A stretch of 64,000 bases of DNA, taken from assembly GCF_002024165.1 (NCBI RefSeq), contig NZ_MWQN01000005.1, positions 186,001-250,000 on the forward strand, given 5' to 3'. Below, piece by piece: positions 9,674 to 44,402 of the stretch; the first letter of the stretch is position 1; the number at the start of each line of letters is the position of its first letter. The notes under the pieces were generated by a model, which was given only the letters and a program-made list of their open reading frames with translations, did not search any database and had not been told where the DNA came from. Source of the stretch: Embleya scabrispora. Its GTDB lineage: Bacteria > Actinomycetota > Actinomycetes > Streptomycetales > Streptomycetaceae. Made by a program: the position numbers and the translations under genes.

Positions 9674-10228
9674 GTGATCGTGTTCAAGGGTTGGTGGCAT
9701 GTGTTGCCGGACGAAAAGCGGCGGACGTGGCTGCTGGAGCCGTTCGTGGGTGTGGGGCCGCTGCGCTTCGGCATGACCCCCGACGAGATCGCGGACGCGA
9801 TGAGCGAGGTCACCGTGGAAACCGAGCGATACAGGCGCAGTTGTCCGGCGGGCGCCAACGTCTACACGGTCGAGGAGGGGTGGTATCGAGAGTTCGGTCT
9901 GCACCTGTACTACCGGGGCGAGCGGCTCGCGGGCATCGCGGTCGACGCCCTGTGCGGACCACAGGTCCTCGCGGACGGCACGGCGCTGGTCGGCCGAATA
10001 CCCTCCGTCCTCGAGCAATGGATGCTCGATCGCGCCGAGACCCGCCCGCCGTACACCGAACTCGCGTACATGAGCGCGGGCGTTCCCTCCTCCGAGTCGT
10101 TGGGCGTGACGCTCAACGTGCAACGCGAGGGCGACGGCCTCCTCACCCGGCCGATCTTCTACCCCGCCGAGGCACTCGACGACCTTCCCCACTGGCTGCC
10201 GCCGGAGGCCTGGGCGATCCACGACTGA
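9674..10228 (+). CDS. Hypothetical protein, divergent paralogue B
   Basis: This gene of 184 residues starts at GTG 9674, or 182 residues from GTG 9680; AGG at 9667 does not decide between them. It shares VGPLRFGMT, GLHLYYRG, VDALCGPQV, LVGRIPSVLE and LTRP with the minus-strand gene at 8671-9225. Conservation of the whole architecture shows a complete duplicated gene. Function unknown. A strong hairpin 430 bases downstream ends this side of the region. Confidence 0.65.
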   Translation: MIVFKGWWHVLPDEKRRTWLLEPFVGVGPLRFGMTPDEIADAMSEVTVETERYRRSCPAGANVYTVEEGWYREFGLHLYYRGERLAGIAVDALCGPQVLADGTALVGRIPSVLEQWMLDRAETRPPYTELAYMSAGVPSSESLGVTLNVQREGDGLLTRPIFYPAEALDDLPHWLPPEAWAIHD

Positions 10229-10716
10229 GCGCCGTGCGCCGTGCGTGTGAGAATCGACGGATGGTCCCCTACGCGCGTGGCCCGGTCGTCCCGGCGGTTG
10301 TGGACACTCGTCCGCCGTACGCGGTGATGGCGTGTCCGCCCCACGGCGAACGCGCCCTTCCCGAGCCGCGATACCTCGAACCCGACCCGCGGCACCCGGG
10401 CGCCCGGCCCGCGAAGGGCCACGCCTGGACGTCGAGGTCCCGGGCTACCGGCGCCGGCCGATGGCGCCTGTGCCCCGCGTGACCCCGTCGGGGATGACCG
10501 GCCTGGGCGCCGATGGCGTGCGGGCCGCGTGACGCCGCCCCGCCGATGGGGAACCTGCGCGTTGCAGGGGCCGAGGCGCCGTGAGGAAGACCGCGACGAT
10601 CCACGATCGGCGACCGCGCGTTGGAGATCGAGCCGATGCGCCCGCAGGCATCAACGCCGAGCGGCGGCACCCACCTGGGTGCCGCCGCTCTCGCGTACCG
10701 ACCCGCGTTTCGCGAA
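10229..10716. other. Convergent spacer holding a terminator
   Basis: Between two converging genes. Apart from the hairpin at 10659-10690 I see no gene; frames are shadows. Confidence 0.5.
10659..10690. terminator. Near-perfect hairpin, bidirectional terminator
   Basis: The arm GAGCGGCGGCACCCA is followed by CC and then its exact reverse complement, a 15-base-pair stem (less with a sterically allowed loop). It lies 27 bases past the stop of the minus-strand gene and faces the plus-strand gene, so it can serve both. There is no U-tract, as is common in high-GC actinobacteria. Confidence 0.75.
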
Positions 10717-34514: not shown

Positions 34515-36596
34515 ATGGAAAGCGGATGGCAGCAGTACGCGATCACCTTCCCCGATCGCGACACGGCCGAGACGACCGCCGCGCGCCACCTCGCACCCAC
34601 CCTGGAGGACGCCCGCGCCACGGGCCGTATCGGCCCCTGGTGGTACATCCGCAAATCCCCCACCTGGCGGCTGCGGGTACGGCCCGGCACCGATGCCACC
34701 GCCCTCGGTGACCTCCTCGGGGACCTCGCCACCCGCGGACACATCGCCGCGTTCGTCACGGGCATCTACGAACCCGAAACCCTCGCGTTCGGCGGCCCCG
34801 CCGCTATGGAAACCGCCCACACGCTGTTCGAGCACGACAGCCGACACATCCTCGCCCGCACCGCCCACCTCGAGCCGCCACCGCTGGGACGCCGCGAAAC
34901 CACCGTCATGCTCTTCAGCCTCATGCTCCGCACCGCAGGCCTGGACCGGTTCGAACAAGGCGACGTGTGGAACAAAGTCGCAGGCCTGCGCCCCATCCCA
35001 CCCGCACCCACACGGCCCGGACACCGCGAAGCGCTCGCCCGCCTGACCACCACCGACCCCCGCCGCGTTCCCGAACACATCCCCACCGACTGGGCCGAGG
35101 CGTTCGTCGACGCCGGCCGCAGCCTCGCCGCACTCCACCACGGCGGGCACCTGGAACGCGGACTGCGCGCGGTCCTGGCCCACCACTTCATCTTCACCGC
35201 GAACCGCGCCGGACTCTCCGCCCGCCACCAGGCCGCCCTCGCGCACCTGGCCGTCGACGACGTCTTCCACCACTCCCGCGACCACCGACCCCGCCCGAGC
35301 GCCCCCGAGGAAGGCCCCGAGCCCGCTAGGGTCCGTGAAATGACGAACACCCTCGGTGACACCCCGGTTTCCCCCGCGTCCATCACCACCCTGCGCCACC
35401 GCCTCGCGGACCGGCTGCGCGACCGCGGCGCCGCCCGCACCCCCGCCGTCCACGACGCACTGCGCACCGTGCCCCGCCACCTGTTCGTCCCCCACGCCCC
35501 CATCGCGGACGCGTACGCCGACGAAGCCGTCTACACCAAGGAACGCGACGGAGTCTCCCTCAGCGCGGCCTCGCAACCCACCATCGTCGCCACCATGCTG
35601 GAACAACTCGCCGTCGAACCCGGCCACCACATTCTCGAACTCGGCGCCGGAACCGGCTACAACGCCGCCCTCCTCGCGGCGATCGCCGGCCCCCACGGGC
35701 ACGTCACCACCATCGACGTGGACGAAGACCTCGTCACCGACGCCCGCGCCCACCTCGACGCCGCCAGAATCACCGGCGTCGACGTCGTCCTGGGCGACGG
35801 CGCCCTGGGCCACCCCAAATCGGCGCCCTACGACCGGGTGGTGGCAACCGTCGGCGCACACGAGGTCCCCACCGCCTGGCTGGACCAACTCGCCCCCGAC
35901 GGACGCCTGCTCGTCCCCCTGCGCCTGGCCGGCGCCGCCTCTCGCACCATCGCCTTCGAACGCGAGAACGGCGACTGGGTCGACCGCGGCAGCGAAATGG
36001 CCGTCTTCATGCCACTGCGCGGCGGCATCGGCGACGACTCCCGCACCGTCGTCGACCTCACCGGCACCGGCGAGGTCACCCTCCAGACCCACCGGGACAA
36101 CCACCCCCACACCGACCCCACCACCCTCGCCGGCGTCCTCGACAACCCCCGCCACACCACCTGGAGCGGCGTGACCTTCGGCTCCGGCGAGTCCTTCGAA
36201 TGGCTGGACCTGTGGCTGGCCTGCGCGATGACCAACCCGATCATGCGGATGAACGTCCAGGCCACGGCCCGCGAACGCGGCCTGGTCGCCCCCATGTTCC
36301 CCATCGCCGCCATGGCCACCACCACCCCGGACGGCACCCTGGCCTACCTGACCATCCGCGCCGCCGACCCCGTCGACGACGCCCCCCGCTACGAGGTCGG
36401 CGTCATCGCCCACGGCCCGCACGCCGCCGACCTCGCCGATACCTTCGCCGGACACGTCAGCACCTGGGACCGCGACGGATTCCGCACCCGCACCGTCCGC
36501 TTCGCCCTCGAGGACCACCCCGCCCCCACCGACCCGAGCCGCGGACGCTTCGTTCTGACCCGCCCCGACCACCCCGTCACCGTCACCTGGCAATAA
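34515..36596 (+). CDS. Fusion of SpaB_C/thiopeptide-type domain and FxLD-system methyltransferase
   Basis: ATG 34515 follows GAAGGGA. Residues 1-270 resemble the C-terminal elimination domain of LanB-type enzymes (WWYIRKSPTWRLRVRPG, then HDSRHILARTAHL). From Met276 a PIMT homologue follows, with PRHLFVPHAPI, the SAM motif ILELGAGTGYNAALLA at about 373-388, and the long RiPP-type C-terminal region. In described FxLD/olivapeptin-like systems the PIMT methylates an Asp of the cyclised peptide, giving aspartimide and then isoaspartate. A -10-like TAGGGT lies exactly seven bases before the Met276 codon, so the methyltransferase could also be expressed alone. Confidence 0.88.
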   Translation: MESGWQQYAITFPDRDTAETTAARHLAPTLEDARATGRIGPWWYIRKSPTWRLRVRPGTDATALGDLLGDLATRGHIAAFVTGIYEPETLAFGGPAAMETAHTLFEHDSRHILARTAHLEPPPLGRRETTVMLFSLMLRTAGLDRFEQGDVWNKVAGLRPIPPAPTRPGHREALARLTTTDPRRVPEHIPTDWAEAFVDAGRSLAALHHGGHLERGLRAVLAHHFIFTANRAGLSARHQAALAHLAVDDVFHHSRDHRPRPSAPEEGPEPARVREMTNTLGDTPVSPASITTLRHRLADRLRDRGAARTPAVHDALRTVPRHLFVPHAPIADAYADEAVYTKERDGVSLSAASQPTIVATMLEQLAVEPGHHILELGAGTGYNAALLAAIAGPHGHVTTIDVDEDLVTDARAHLDAARITGVDVVLGDGALGHPKSAPYDRVVATVGAHEVPTAWLDQLAPDGRLLVPLRLAGAASRTIAFERENGDWVDRGSEMAVFMPLRGGIGDDSRTVVDLTGTGEVTLQTHRDNHPHTDPTTLAGVLDNPRHTTWSGVTFGSGESFEWLDLWLACAMTNPIMRMNVQATARERGLVAPMFPIAAMATTTPDGTLAYLTIRAADPVDDAPRYEVGVIAHGPHAADLADTFAGHVSTWDRDGFRTRTVRFALEDHPAPTDPSRGRFVLTRPDHPVTVTWQ
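35327..35342 (+). promoter_or_regulatory. Internal leaderless promoter candidate before the methyltransferase domain
   Basis: TAGGGT (35327-35332) is followed by seven bases and then an in-frame ATG (35340) at the exact domain boundary. The same TANNNT-N6-8-start spacing precedes several other genes in this window. No good -35 is visible. Confidence 0.4.
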
Positions 36597-38686: not shown

Positions 38687-38867
38687 CCCCGTGTGACTGG
38701 TCGCGATAGATGACACCGGTGGAGCATGCCGAGCAGGCCCTGTCCCGTCGCAAATGATCTGGTCTGCGGACGTTGCTGTGACCTGCGGCGACCAGATGGA
38801 TTGAGACGTCAGACTGGTGCTTGTCTCAGTTGATGTGGTCTGCCAGACGCGGATGTCACTCGTTGTC

Positions 38868-40010
38868 TCAGTCGATCTGGTTCGGCGGTGGCGTTTCGAA
38901 GTGATGCCAACTCTGGGTGTTCAGCCACGACTGGTAGGTCCTGAAGATCTCGGCGAGTCCATCCGGCTGCTCGCGCTGGTCCAGGAATTCGGCCAGGAGT
39001 TGGAAGAGCGTCGCGACGGCTTCGATATCCGCGTGTGGTGTGAGCGGATGGACCCATCCTGCGGGTGTGAGGTGGCGAACGAGGACTGGCCAGGTGAGGT
39101 CGTGTCCTTTGCCGAGGCGGGTGACCAGCCATTCGTGGAAGCCGGTGAGCATGCCCCAAGAGCTTCCGGCATCGCAGCCGAGGACGAAGGCGGTGGTGGT
39201 GGCGAATGAACCGTCGATGCCGTGCATGGCGGGTTGTTGGCGAACGGCGGCAAGCATTCCGCGGTAGTGCCTGACCATCCCGGCCTGAAGGGTTTGCTGG
39301 GTAGCGGCGAGGAAATTCCCGGCGGGACGCCCGGGAGTGCTGGTAACGCCATTGGGGTTCTTGAGTGGATGTCCGGAGAGGAAGCGGCGAATCGTTGCGT
39401 AGGAGACGTCGGCGTCGTATTCGTCCAGGAGTCGTTCCCAGATCAGCCGGGTCGAGGGGAGGTGACCGCAGTGTTTGGCCGCGTACTCGTCGAGAATTGC
39501 GTCGAGAGCGGGACGGACCCGGTCCAGTGCCGGGTTCTCCTGAAGGGTGCGGGGTTTGCGGGGCGGTGGGTTCGGTGAGGACAGCGCCTGGACGACGGTG
39601 CGGTTGTGAACGCGGTTTCGCTTGGCCAGGGGGGTGACCGTCAGGTGTTCGGCATGGGCGTCTCGGCGGATGGCCGCGAAGAGCGCGGGCTTATCCGCAC
39701 TGAGAGTGACCCGCCGCTTGGGCTTGGCCGGTTGGTCGGGCTCGGTCGGCTTGCGTGGGGCCAGGTCAATCAAGGCCCTTTCCAGGGATGCTTGTTGGCG
39801 GCCTGTGACGACGGCGAGCCGCTCGGCTTTGGGGCGGTTTCCGTAGCCGTAGTCGGGCGGTCCCGCGAGATATCCGCGCAGATAGCTCGGCTTGAGATGG
39901 TTGGCATGAGCCAGGCGGCGGATATAGGAGTCGGTGGATTCCCCGGATCTGGGCCGGGGGCGGGCCGGCAGTGGGCGGAGCCGGTCGTCGCTGTTGGACT
40001 CGGCGGTCAC
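38868..40010 (-). CDS. tniQ: TniQ-like targeting protein with a C-terminal HTH region
   Basis: GTG 40010 overlaps the TniB stop as GTGA and gives 380 residues. The N-terminus has LPARPRPRSGESTDSYIRRL and HANHLKPSYLRGYL, the TniQ signature. The usual zinc-binding Cys pairs are not seen. The middle and C-terminus contain HTH-like segments (PLAKRNRVHNRTVVQAL, VSYATIRRFL) more like those of IS21-type or TnsB N-termini. TniQ-family proteins direct TnsABC to target sites. The last codons overlap an ATCTGGT repeat. Confidence 0.7.
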   Translation of the reverse strand: MTAESNSDDRLRPLPARPRPRSGESTDSYIRRLAHANHLKPSYLRGYLAGPPDYGYGNRPKAERLAVVTGRQQASLERALIDLAPRKPTEPDQPAKPKRRVTLSADKPALFAAIRRDAHAEHLTVTPLAKRNRVHNRTVVQALSSPNPPPRKPRTLQENPALDRVRPALDAILDEYAAKHCGHLPSTRLIWERLLDEYDADVSYATIRRFLSGHPLKNPNGVTSTPGRPAGNFLAATQQTLQAGMVRHYRGMLAAVRQQPAMHGIDGSFATTTAFVLGCDAGSSWGMLTGFHEWLVTRLGKGHDLTWPVLVRHLTPAGWVHPLTPHADIEAVATLFQLLAEFLDQREQPDGLAEIFRTYQSWLNTQSWHHFETPPPNQID

Positions 40011-41071
40011 GAGGCGGATTTCGTCTTGCGGGTTTGGGCGGCGTGGTCGAGTTGAACGCTCTTCAGGGAATTGCGGGTGATCGTCTCGGAGCCGTCGAGG
40101 ATGGCGTCGATGGCGGCTCCGCGAATGAGATGGGAGAGACTTCCGATCATGCCGCCGGTGCGTCGGTGGAGGTATTCCGCCAGCGCTTCCAGGGTTCCGG
40201 GTCGGTGTTGGTGCAGCCGCAGGGCCGCTTCGAGGGCGCCGACGAGCCCGGTCCATTCCTGAGTGCGGGGGAAGGGAATGGTTTCGATGACCGCGAAGCG
40301 TCCGGCGATCTGTCGACCGCGGGTTCCGGCGAACAGTCCGTTGTCTTCCAGGTCGACTCCGGCATAGACGAAGGTGGCGGGGATGCGTTCGGAGAAGTAC
40401 TTCAAGGTGTCGGAGACTTCGGCGCCGTTGCGTGTCGCCAGCGAGAGGTTGTGCAGTTCGTCGACGCATACGACGCTGACACGCGCGTCGATGAGGACAC
40501 CGCAGACGGCCTCGATGACATCGGTGATGTTGGCGCGAGTGGTCACCGGGATGCCGAGGAAGCGGGCGAACTCGACGGCGAGCATGCGGGAGGTCGCGGC
40601 GGGTGGAACGGTGACGTAGACCACCGGAATGCGGTCGACTCCCGGGTGTTGGCGCCGGTCGATGATCTCGATGGTCTTGCCGAACTGGGTGAGCGCGGTG
40701 GTCTTGCCGGTGCCGGCGGCCCCGGAAAGGATCAGGCCGCGGCGGGCGCTGATCGCGTGGCGGTTCAGCAGCGTCAGGCGCCTGCCGGCGTGGACGACGG
40801 TGCGCAAGGTCGAGGTCGCGGCGACCGTCAGGCGGGTGTGGTAGTCGAGGCGGTCCTCGTCGTAGTCCAGCCGCTTGTCCGGGTCCAGGCCCGCGAGCGT
40901 GTCCTCGGGCAACAGGTCGGGCGGAGCCGGATCCTGGGTGGTGAACTCGTGCCATCCTTCCAGGGTGGTGAGGTGACGGTGTAGTTCCTCCTGGTCCAAG
41001 GCCCGTCGCCAGCCCCGCCGACGTGCGGGATCGGGGTCCTGCCCCCGCGCGGGTCCGGTCGCGGTCACCAT
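40007..41071 (-). CDS. tniB: TniB/TnsC-like AAA+ ATPase
   Basis: The 354-residue protein has Walker A GAAGTGKTTA at 117-126, Walker B VSVVCVDELHNL near 198-209, and a sensor-like FVYAGVDLEDNGLF. These features match TniB/TnsC regulators, which form filaments on target DNA and switch on the transposase. The start overlaps the TnsB stop. The gene lies between TnsB and TniQ, the usual order. Confidence 0.88.
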   Translation of the reverse strand: MVTATGPARGQDPDPARRRGWRRALDQEELHRHLTTLEGWHEFTTQDPAPPDLLPEDTLAGLDPDKRLDYDEDRLDYHTRLTVAATSTLRTVVHAGRRLTLLNRHAISARRGLILSGAAGTGKTTALTQFGKTIEIIDRRQHPGVDRIPVVYVTVPPAATSRMLAVEFARFLGIPVTTRANITDVIEAVCGVLIDARVSVVCVDELHNLSLATRNGAEVSDTLKYFSERIPATFVYAGVDLEDNGLFAGTRGRQIAGRFAVIETIPFPRTQEWTGLVGALEAALRLHQHRPGTLEALAEYLHRRTGGMIGSLSHLIRGAAIDAILDGSETITRNSLKSVQLDHAAQTRKTKSAS

Positions 41072-43188
41072 CGCTTGTCCGCCTCCTTGAAGGGGTCGAA
41101 AACGCCGAGCGGGATGACCTTCGCAATCGGCCGTGTGTCCCGGTCTTCCGCCGCTTCGGCCGCCTCGGGTGCGGAATCCGTCGTCGCGGCTGCGGATCCC
41201 GGTTCGGGCCGTGGCGGCCGGGGCCCGGTGCTCTGCGCGGCGGCGCGCGTCCGGGCGGCGACGCGTCTGTTCCGCTTGGCGGACCGCGATGTCACGTCGC
41301 CTTCGCGAGCCGGTCCCTCATCCGCTCTGACCAGCAGTTCCGCAACCGCTGTGGCGATCTGTTCCTCGGTGGGAGAAGGGTTGCCGGTTCTTCGGAGGTC
41401 GGCTGCCGCGTGGTCCCAGGCCAGGTCACCGAAGGGCTGTGGGACGCTGCCCAAGTGCGTCCAGGGGACCGGGATCCAGTCCGTTTCGGGGTTCCAGTGG
41501 TTGCGCATCCAGAGCCGGTTGGCGTCGTAGGGGTCGCGGTGCGTCTCCCACAGGTTCCTCGTGCGTGTGACGCCCGAGGGTTGGCGCCGGAAGGGGGCCA
41601 GGTCAGGGCAGTCGTAGATCCGATTGTTGATTTTGATGCCGTAGGCGTTGACGGCCCGCCAGGTCGCGGGCAGAAGTTCGACGTAGTCGTCTCCGCTCAG
41701 GGCGAGGGGGACGTAACCGGCGGTCTCGACGAGGCTTGTGTACTTCTGGTTCGGGGTGAACATGCGCCCGGGGCTGCCCGGGTCGCGGAGCCCGTCATGT
41801 GGTCTGTTCTGCCACTTGGCGACGAGCCATTCGTCCAGAAGTTCCTGGATCTCCAGCATCGACCAGAGCGGCTCGTCCTCCACGTTCCGGCCGCGGTGTT
41901 CGGCGGTGCGGCCGAGGTAGCCGGGGAGGAACTGGCAGAAGAGCGTGGCCACCGATTCGATCGTGCGTTCGATGTGGGGCTTCTCCGTCGGCGATCTCGG
42001 ATGGCAGGGTTGGAAGTTGATCTCCAAAGTCCGGCAGGCGGAACGGAAGTTCTCCGAGATGAACGCCTTCCCTCGGTCGCAGACGATCGTCTCGGGGATG
42101 ATCACCGGCCGGGCGGCAGCGTGTTCCAGACGTTCGTCCAGGGTCAACAGCCTGCGATGCGGCAGCACCGAGCGCGACATCGCCAACGCCTTCGCCCAGC
42201 CCGGTCGCATCGGCTCCGGGGTCAGCGCGCGGGCCAGCAGCAGCGAGGCGTCCACCGACTTCGTGGTCGGCCGCACCACAGCGGCGGCCATGGTGCGGGT
42301 GGCCACGTCGACCAGACCGCAGAGTTCCACCCGCCCGGGAACACCCTCGTCCAGCCGGACCAGCACGTCCATCGGGGTGGAGTCGATCTGCATCAACTCG
42401 CCCGGGGCCACCACTTGTTCGAAGCGAAACGGGCCCTCGGGCCGGTCGGCCAGGGAACGGCGCGTGCGGGCCGACCCCGTCACGTGCACCCCGTGGGACA
42501 GCTTGTCGAAGAGCCGGTAGAACGTGGCCCGCGAGGGCATCCGAACCGCGTCCCCGCCGTGCTCGGCGATCAGGATGCGCTCCGTGCGCCAACGCGCGTA
42601 CTCGATCGTGCGGGTGGAGGCCGGGACGCTCTCAGCGATGGCCCGGCGGATCGCCTCCACCACACGCGGATCGGCCCGGCCGAGCAGCGAGGCGTGCGGC
42701 GCGAGCCTGTGGTCCACTACCGCCTGGACCCCGCCCGCCTCGTAACGCTGCCGCTTGCGCTTTACCGTCCGTGCCGTGATCTCTTCGCCCAGCGCGACCA
42801 GTTCGGCTGCCTTGGCCCGCTCACGTTCGGCCAGCGAGCGCCGCCCGACCGGGTCGTACTCGGGTCGGGGACGGGTTCCCTCGGGAGCGTCCGGCGGTAG
42901 TCCGGTGAGAAGTTCGACCAAGTGCCGCTGCCACCACAGTGCGCGCTCGGCCACGTCCTCGGGAAGCTGACCCAACAGTGCGGCAGAGCCCAGCGCGGCC
43001 CGCTCGCCCGCCCCGATCACGGCGAAGTCCTCGGCCGCCTGCAGATGGACCTGGTCCACCAGCATGCCGGTGCCGTGGGTGTCGGCCAGCCGGACCCGCA
43101 TCCCGGTCAAACCGACCACCGTATAGGTGCGTTTTTCGAACCGAACCCGGTCGCCCAACCGCAACCTCCCCGGCCGCGCAGACGTCAT
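41065..43188 (-). CDS. tnsB: TnsB/TniA-like DDE transposase
   Basis: ATG 43188 follows GGGAG and gives 707 residues. DDE residues are visible as Asp269 in LMQIDSTPMDV, Asp371 in IVCDRGKAFIS and Glu407 in PHIERTIESV. N-terminal HTH modules (RTVKRKRQRYEAGGVQAVVD, RATFYRLFDKLSHG) should bind end repeats. A Mu-type C-terminal domain follows, and the last 100 residues are Ala/Pro-rich, perhaps contacting TniB. It performs strand transfer, with TnsA cutting the other strand. Confidence 0.9.
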   Translation of the reverse strand: MTSARPGRLRLGDRVRFEKRTYTVVGLTGMRVRLADTHGTGMLVDQVHLQAAEDFAVIGAGERAALGSAALLGQLPEDVAERALWWQRHLVELLTGLPPDAPEGTRPRPEYDPVGRRSLAERERAKAAELVALGEEITARTVKRKRQRYEAGGVQAVVDHRLAPHASLLGRADPRVVEAIRRAIAESVPASTRTIEYARWRTERILIAEHGGDAVRMPSRATFYRLFDKLSHGVHVTGSARTRRSLADRPEGPFRFEQVVAPGELMQIDSTPMDVLVRLDEGVPGRVELCGLVDVATRTMAAAVVRPTTKSVDASLLLARALTPEPMRPGWAKALAMSRSVLPHRRLLTLDERLEHAAARPVIIPETIVCDRGKAFISENFRSACRTLEINFQPCHPRSPTEKPHIERTIESVATLFCQFLPGYLGRTAEHRGRNVEDEPLWSMLEIQELLDEWLVAKWQNRPHDGLRDPGSPGRMFTPNQKYTSLVETAGYVPLALSGDDYVELLPATWRAVNAYGIKINNRIYDCPDLAPFRRQPSGVTRTRNLWETHRDPYDANRLWMRNHWNPETDWIPVPWTHLGSVPQPFGDLAWDHAAADLRRTGNPSPTEEQIATAVAELLVRADEGPAREGDVTSRSAKRNRRVAARTRAAAQSTGPRPPRPEPGSAAATTDSAPEAAEAAEDRDTRPIAKVIPLGVFDPFKEADKRW

Positions 43189-44042
43189 CGCCGCTCCCGC
43201 GGCGCCGCGTGGACCATGGTGTCGGTGCCCAGTGGGGCCGATGTCAGATCCACGGCCAGTTCGTGCAGCCAGAGGAGATGAAAAAGGACCGGTAGCACCG
43301 CCAGACGATCTCCGACCGCCTCGGCTCCGGCGACAAGCGGGAGCGGTTCGGCAAACACGTTGCGCAGTCGATCCGCCACCGGTGCTTGGTGGCAGCGGGG
43401 ATGACGGTAGCGGGCCAGCCAGCGCAGGTTCACCCGATACGGCTGGCTCAGGTCCCCGACCCGTCGGAACTGCCAGCCCACCGCCTCGCAGACCTGCGCG
43501 GTGAACTTGAAGACCTCGGCGGCGGCCTCGTCGACCAGACCTTCGGGGCGCACATCGACGACAACGCCCGTGCCATCCGCGAGCCGCGCGAAATAGTCCG
43601 GAGTGTGCCCACGCTCCCGGTCGCGGTCCCGGTCCGTCCATGCGAGCCGGAAGGGCTGGGATGCCAGAGCGATGACGGCCGGATCGAAGTCCAGGGCCAT
43701 CGCCGCGTCCCGTTCGACCCACGATTCGTAGCCCACATGGGAACGCGAGGTCGCGGCCCAGTATTCGCCGGTGAAATTCTTCTGCCCCTTGAACGAGACG
43801 AACTTCCGCACTGGGGAGACCAGTTCGAAGGGATCGCCCCAGTGTCGACCCAGCGAACCCAGACGCTCGATGCCGTCCGCGTCGATGAACCGCACCTCGA
43901 CATCGGACGCGAAATCCCAGGCAGACGCTGCCGCTGCCGACTTGCCCACGAGCACCTCCGCTCGTCCGCCCAATGCCTCGTGCGTACGAGCGTGGAACAC
44001 CCCACGCAGGCTCGTCATCCAGAAGCGAGCGGCATCACTCAA
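43185..44042 (-). CDS. tnsA: TnsA-like endonuclease
   Basis: The 285-residue protein starts at ATG 44042 and overlaps TnsB as ATGA. YESWVERDAAM (Glu110), HTPDYFARL (Asp149) and VVVDVRPEG form the core of TnsA, a PD-(D/E)XK nuclease that cuts the 5' ends during excision. The usual Lys of the last strand is Arg165 here. SRSHVGYESWVE is the common TnsA lead-in. If active, the element moves by cut-and-paste. If the Arg inactivates it, cointegrates would result. Confidence 0.8.
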   Translation of the reverse strand: MSDAARFWMTSLRGVFHARTHEALGGRAEVLVGKSAAAASAWDFASDVEVRFIDADGIERLGSLGRHWGDPFELVSPVRKFVSFKGQKNFTGEYWAATSRSHVGYESWVERDAAMALDFDPAVIALASQPFRLAWTDRDRDRERGHTPDYFARLADGTGVVVDVRPEGLVDEAAAEVFKFTAQVCEAVGWQFRRVGDLSQPYRVNLRWLARYRHPRCHQAPVADRLRNVFAEPLPLVAGAEAVGDRLAVLPVLFHLLWLHELAVDLTSAPLGTDTMVHAAPRERR

Positions 44043-44156
44043 AAGGGCGATGCCTCATCCCGAACGATCTGGCGAACCAGATCATCTGAGACCACGAGCG
44101 AATCGGACCCGTTCACTTGAGACGGGGACCAGATCGATAGAGACGGGACAAGGCCC

Positions 44157-44351
44157 GATGCTCCGAATTGATCGCGATGGTTGACACTGGTTGGTCATCG
44201 TTGTTGGCACATGGTCGAGTTGGTTGACCGACCTGACCCCGGCCCGGAACAGTTCCTGCTGGTCAGCGGCCTCGTGCATCGCGGCGGTCACGTCAACGAG
44301 GCGTCGGTGTCAATTGCCGCGACCAGATGTCATCTATCTCGACCAGTCACA
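44157..44351. other. Right arm of the outer element
   Basis: This 195-base stretch lies between the inner and outer right ends. It contains GACCAGATG and several TTGGT copies, possibly further TnsB-type sites. On the minus strand HEAADQQELFRAGVRSVN looks coding-like but is short. No gene called. Confidence 0.4.
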
Positions 44352-44402
44352 CCCCGATGCCCCGGTCTCGAACGCCACACCGTGCCTGTCGGTAGGGGTC
44401 TC

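Follow-up and report, generated by a model that had tools for sequence, protein, structure and literature searches.

How did one Tn7-like transposon come to lie inside the end of another, and was the place chosen? The question is raised by a 64,000-nucleotide stretch of Embleya scabrispora DNA (hereafter the window), in which two pairs of transposon ends are nested. The outer termini (38692 and 44351) are identical at 21 of 22 bases (TGTGACTGGTCG[C/A]GATAGATGA) and are flanked by a perfect 5-bp target-site duplication (TSD), CCCCG, at 38687-38691 and 44352-44356, whereas the inner termini (38741 and 44150) agree at 18 of 22 bases (TGTCCCGTC..GATCTGG) and are flanked by a perfect 6-bp repeat, AGGCCC, at 38735-38740 and 44151-44156. 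Both pairs of termini and all four duplication copies were read directly and scored, and both terminal pairs are among the longest found in an inverted-repeat scan, confirming the nested ends, each with its own duplication, that were reported in a preliminary description of this locus. Taking out the inner transposon and one AGGCCC copy joins the two outer arms (38692-38740 and 44157-44351) into a 244-bp element that contains no gene, in good agreement with the small element of about 245 bases into which the inner one had been proposed to jump. The outer element consists of a four-site end and a two-site end: its left arm comprises the terminus, the first TnsB-like site and the spacer that holds the inner transposon, and in its right arm the remaining three TnsB-like sites of the left end (about 44168-44229) are separated by filler from the two-site right end (44307-44351). 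Insertion took place between the first and second TnsB-like sites of the four-site end, 49 bp from the terminus. With its terminal repeats and 5-bp TSD but no transposase gene, the outer element has the features of a non-autonomous Tn7-like element. Searching the genome for the outer end with up to three mismatches returned just these two places (zero for a reversed-pattern control), and an end-library search found no other Tn7-like end in the 64-kb window.

The inner element (38741-44150; 5,410 bp, with its genes on the minus strand) carries tnsA, tnsB, tnsC and tniQ in one operon between TGT..ACA ends that contain several TnsB-like repeats. Its tniQ-side end (38741-38867), relatives of which are present in 32 plasmid records, is followed by minus-strand genes for TniQ (38868-40010, 380 aa; TniQ domain at residues 15-79, PF06527, 2e-6), the TniB/AAA ATPase TnsC (40007-41071, 354 aa), the rve/DDE transposase TnsB (41065-43188, 707 aa) and TnsA (43185-44042, 285 aa; TnsA_like_Actin NF033179, E 1e-85), and then by the tnsA-side end (44043-44150), which has repeats of the type GTCTCA....GATCTGGTC. 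No cargo gene is seen in these 5,410 bp, and no resolvase gene was recognised within the element. Members of the Tn5053/Tn402 family lack TnsA, encode a resolvase and insert at res sites; the presence of tnsA places the inner element outside this family. Its TSD is 6 bp long as opposed to 5 bp in seven relatives (L149, L194, L197-L200 and L206), although, with one end misplaced by a single base, AGGCCC could be a 5-bp duplication extended by a chance match. As a result, filing the inner element as Tn7-like rests on its genes and relatives. Elsewhere in the window, a gene at 34515-36596 combines a lantibiotic-dehydratase C-terminal domain with a PCMT methyltransferase in one fusion, which points to a peptide natural-product cluster next to the transposon.

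The inner Tn7-like transposon thus sits inside a 244-bp element of another Tn7-like family, and comparison with relatives establishes, at the level of sequence, the two elements, their duplications and the order of insertion. An uninterrupted outer element is present in the Streptomyces sp. NBC_00445 plasmid NZ_CP107915.1, where it aligns over positions 1-243 of 244 (73.6%). In addition, S. chryseus has a left terminus identical to that of the outer element followed by the left part of the element without interruption, and a congeneric genome contains a fragment that crosses the insertion point (positions 37-169, 87%). The string GARCAGGCNCGAT is unbroken in all three, as expected for an empty site, so that the empty outer element sought on the advice of the preliminary description does exist. 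Two copies of the inner transposon (L148, 80%; L149, 78%) share its ends, TGTCCCGTC......GATCTGGTC, but not the outer repeats. Because these 78-80% relatives lack them, it is not the case that copies of this transposon always carry both repeat pairs, and a single compound end structure is ruled out by the uninterrupted outer copies together with the inner copies that have no outer repeats.

The layout of the outer element resembles that of L027 (TGCGACTGGTCGAGATAGATGTCAC) and L109 (TGTGACTCGCAGCGATAACTGTCAC), which encode tnsBC-tniQ with tnsA, and it is therefore most likely a non-autonomous representative of a second Tn7-like family, similarity to these two autonomous, tns-bearing elements being partial. 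Autonomous outer-type relatives have tnsABC-tniQ with their own terminal inverted repeats (TIRs) and 5-bp TSDs, and 5-bp duplications are seen in L108, L109 and L111 of this tns-bearing group. The TnsB proteins of L027 and the inner element are far apart (28%). The exact autonomous partner of the outer element was not found among the tns-bearing relatives compared, to which similarity is only partial. Two further arrangements of outer-type ends were observed: in L025 (G002:C90, about 9936-10400) a mini-element of roughly 400 bp with L108-type ends (TGAGCCGAAGCACGATAGTTGTCAC) lies within an outer-type right end (75 bp, 95% to the window), a second nesting, and in S. chryseus (L011, 4348-4403) outer-type right and left ends stand back to back with 7 bp between them.

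The preliminary description had read the target as a hairpin, given that GGAGCAT (38721-38727, plus strand) and ATGCTCC (44158-44164, plus strand) can pair across the joined site. This pairing is real, and the rejoined 38-nt site folds well (-15.7 kcal/mol, z -2.3), but the sites used by inner relatives show no unusual fold: the rejoined L148 and L149 sites have z values of 1.2 and 0.2, and the L191 flank one of -0.5. Among outer-type ends, a stem is possible in the spacer of several but |z| exceeds 2 in just 3 of 10; L109 has a better stem than the window in the same spacer, and several other outer relatives have none. The stem-loop may be a feature of outer-type ends; it is not one that the targets of the inner family have in common, and we consider it very unlikely that the inner element selected a hairpin.

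A different regularity is seen in the inner family. Twelve copies other than that in the window have a definable TnsA-side end, and in 11 of these the end lies 30-35 bp, mostly 32 bp, outside a differently typed Tn7-like terminus, always in one orientation. The gap is 32 bp in L148, L149, L155, L197, L198, L200 and L203, 33 bp in L194, 35 bp in L191 and 30 bp in L199; L206, which was fetched after the prediction had been made, also has a gap of 32 bp together with a 5-bp TSD. The sole exception is L196 (about 7 bp). To put the regularity to the test, plasmids were searched using the inner tniQ-side end alone, and eleven listed records were fetched; in seven of these (L194, L196-L200 and L203) the other end could be placed and has a usable flank. 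L201, L202, L204 and L205 were left out of the count for want of a usable TnsA-side end (the other flank of L205 is the same as that of L203), as was L195, which has a degenerate end and no TSD. In the seven relatives with 5-bp TSDs listed above, the duplication spans the inner element. L148 offers a second case of nesting, its inner-type transposon lying within a small element (618 bp, 22/22 matching termini), 28 bp from the end of the latter; this small element is itself 4 bp from the end of a third, which puts the TnsA-side end 32 bp from the third terminus. Two of the neighbours are complete small transposons with TIRs and 5-bp TSDs (956 bp in L148 and 1,572 bp in L199).

Because the gaps had first been read by eye from visible termini, leave-one-out analysis and L206 provide the fair tests. 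Leave-one-out versions of a target profile built from ten targets (consensus ANCGGTCAANNTTCGNTGNCACAGGACA) rank the stated gap first in nine of the ten and second in L200. Moreover, when compared with a library of ends from complete elements, the target ends obtain scores of 37-86, whereas the 99th percentile of 400 random windows is 30. No match at 30-35 bp is found on the TnsA side of any of 21 elements with other TniQs, three of which lie 7, 20 or about 41 bp from the end of another element, and none is found on the tniQ-side flanks of the inner family. TniQ is known in just two of the 11 good cases (L148 and L149), the others being copies that are broken or have no tns genes. L152, which belongs to that TniQ clade and is seen on its TniQ side alone, abuts another end there, and L151 has no neighbouring end on its TniQ side. 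These sequence comparisons show a fixed 32-bp geometry and site-specific insertion in the inner family, and because inner relatives are almost always about 32 bp outside another Tn7-like end, other transposons seem to serve the family as landing sites. A short core pattern of the site, allowing three mismatches, was dropped as too loose, and IMG/VR contains neither a relative of the TniQ protein nor an exact match to the inner ends. On plasmids, inner-type ends are found directly upstream of an aminoglycoside phosphotransferase family gene in L195 and L197, and in L197 both inner-type ends are present with no tns gene annotated between them.

The protein that most plausibly reads the target is TniQ. 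In the window copy it comprises the TniQ domain (residues 15-79), an IS21-transposase-like HTH region (115-213) and a C-terminal region (213-380) that is conserved in the window clade alone. Three TnsABC relatives with an unrelated TniQ C-terminus (L150, L188 and L190; about 78-82% TnsB identity) are inserted 36-39 bp from TCAACGATATATCG with the TnsA side nearest, and the more distant L160 and L165 are likewise near TCAACGATATATCG, giving 36-40 bp and the same orientation for all five. Since relatives with other TniQs insert 36-40 bp from this sequence, the superfamily homes at a fixed offset from a site that changes with TniQ, and TniQ is likely to be the target selector. In the inner family this protein has probably adopted other Tn7-like ends as attachment sites; we can only guess that its C-terminal region determines the target. 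The HTH region alone would not account for end recognition, because a similar region is present in shorter TniQs whose elements insert near an operator-like sequence (L157). No sequence relative of TniQ is present in the PDB, and an AlphaFold model of the protein (pLDDT 51) is too poor to use. The five transposons beside TCAACGATATATCG adjoin what looks like a regulator's operator, and L157 and L158 share another site, CAGATATCTCGATGTCGAGATAACTCTAGTAC; perhaps other TniQs home to operators.

We therefore favor the explanation that an autonomous inner transposon lies in the end of the outer element and that its family homes, by means of TniQ, to positions about 32 bp outside the termini of other Tn7-like elements, and assign this reading as a whole a probability of roughly 0.8. 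Its mechanistic part, which we likewise hold to be likely, is that TniQ has been redirected from host genes to other Tn7-like ends, with insertion about 32 bp outside and the TnsA-side end nearest, and that the landmark may be either the terminal TnsB site or TnsB of the rival bound there. The single TniQ would act as a TnsD-type selector, binding the consensus terminal TnsB site of other elements (about GGTCAANNTTCGNTGNCACAGGACA) or the foreign TnsB bound there; the TnsC/TnsAB complex would thereby be placed at a fixed offset and in a fixed orientation, in the manner of Tn7 at glmS. The window copy departs from this pattern, having landed inside an end. The closest terminus of the outer element lies on the wrong side, at a distance of 49 bp, the duplication is 6 bp rather than 5 bp long, and the outer TGTGAC ends differ from the TGTCCTG-type ends targeted by inner relatives. 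On its TnsA side, the 30-35 bp interval has as its best match a site internal to the outer element, CCAACAACGATGACCAACCAGTGTCA (gap 31 bp), and this match is weak (p about 0.09). The same machinery probably mistook this internal site of the outer array for a terminus, which would have directed insertion into the end, a step that the weak match supports only faintly.

Chance nesting, in which the inner element inserted at random into a mobile-element-rich region where the outer element happened to be, is an alternative for the window copy, whose match to the target profile of the family is weak. Other TniQ groups also have abutting Tn7-like elements, at varied gaps (2, 7, 20 and 39 bp), and it is possible that the window copy itself is a chance insertion. 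Random insertion does not predict, however, that 11 of 12 family members would lie at 30-35 bp in one orientation, and the window is devoid of any other Tn7-like end; we regard chance as a rather unlikely account.

Different Tn7-like elements might instead home to one host site and so become neighbours, an arrangement known from tandem Tn7-like islands. Several relatives with other TniQs do share TCAACGATATATCG, and L150 has the end of another element adjoining, but shared attachment predicts a conserved host sequence, whereas the 30-35 bp gap sequences have nothing visible in common. The common feature is the neighbour's terminal site and, in L148, L197 and the window, the inner element is within the sequence of another element, making a shared host site improbable. 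The gap alone gives no order of events, so that other elements could in principle have homed to the TnsA-side end of the inner family at 32 bp. Such a reversal would require many different families each to pick the same spot, and is contradicted by the window and L148, where the inner element is inside, by the uninterrupted outer copies and by the seven TSDs spanning the inner element; we judge it highly improbable.

Homing by the inner family resembles that of Tn7 and its relatives, in which TnsD/TniQ proteins recognise glmS, tRNA, comM and other att sites, in its tnsA, tnsB, tnsC and tniQ genes, its arrays of TnsB sites, and the constant spacing and orientation with respect to the recognised site. 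For example, the TnsD of a type I-D CRISPR-associated transposon (CAST) inserts 30-33 nt downstream of its tRNA site (PMC10293859). Unlike in these systems, the site recognised by the inner family is the end of another Tn7-like transposon rather than a host gene, and the window TniQ has a C-terminal region found here just in its own clade. The nearest precedent is the Tn5053 family of 'res site hunters', which lack TnsA, use a site-specific recombinase and land, with a single TniQ, in the resolution sites of Tn3-family transposons (PMC11406308). Both use a single TniQ to land in another transposon, but the inner element has TnsA and the sites of its family are transposon ends. Insertion sequences of the IS1111/IS110 group insert in the inverted repeats of transposons, employing an RNA-guided DEDD transposase and no Tns proteins; they share with the inner family the use of transposon ends as targets, although their transposase is unrelated. 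The relatives of both the inner and outer elements are actinobacterial Tn7-like elements like those of clade 2; according to the report on that clade (PMC8649781), in the consulted passages of which no end-directed targeting is described, none of its members has been experimentally characterised. No Tn7-like element aimed at Tn7-like ends is described in the open-licence literature that we searched.

Where Tn7-like and CRISPR-associated transposons insert is determined by TniQ/TnsD proteins. If our reading is correct, a TniQ that recognises the ends of other transposons would represent a new class of attachment site and would account for the stacking and nesting of Tn7-like elements in actinomycetes, and an element so equipped could ride on any mobile DNA already carrying a Tn7-like element. 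It would also raise the testable question of whether TniQ reads DNA or the rival's TnsB.

As a separate observation on the ends themselves, a CTGACCTG- or CTGAGCTG-like motif is present in one end of most Tn7-like families in the end library and at 38741-38800 of the window, lying in the spacer that follows the first TnsB site, about 35-47 bp from the terminus.
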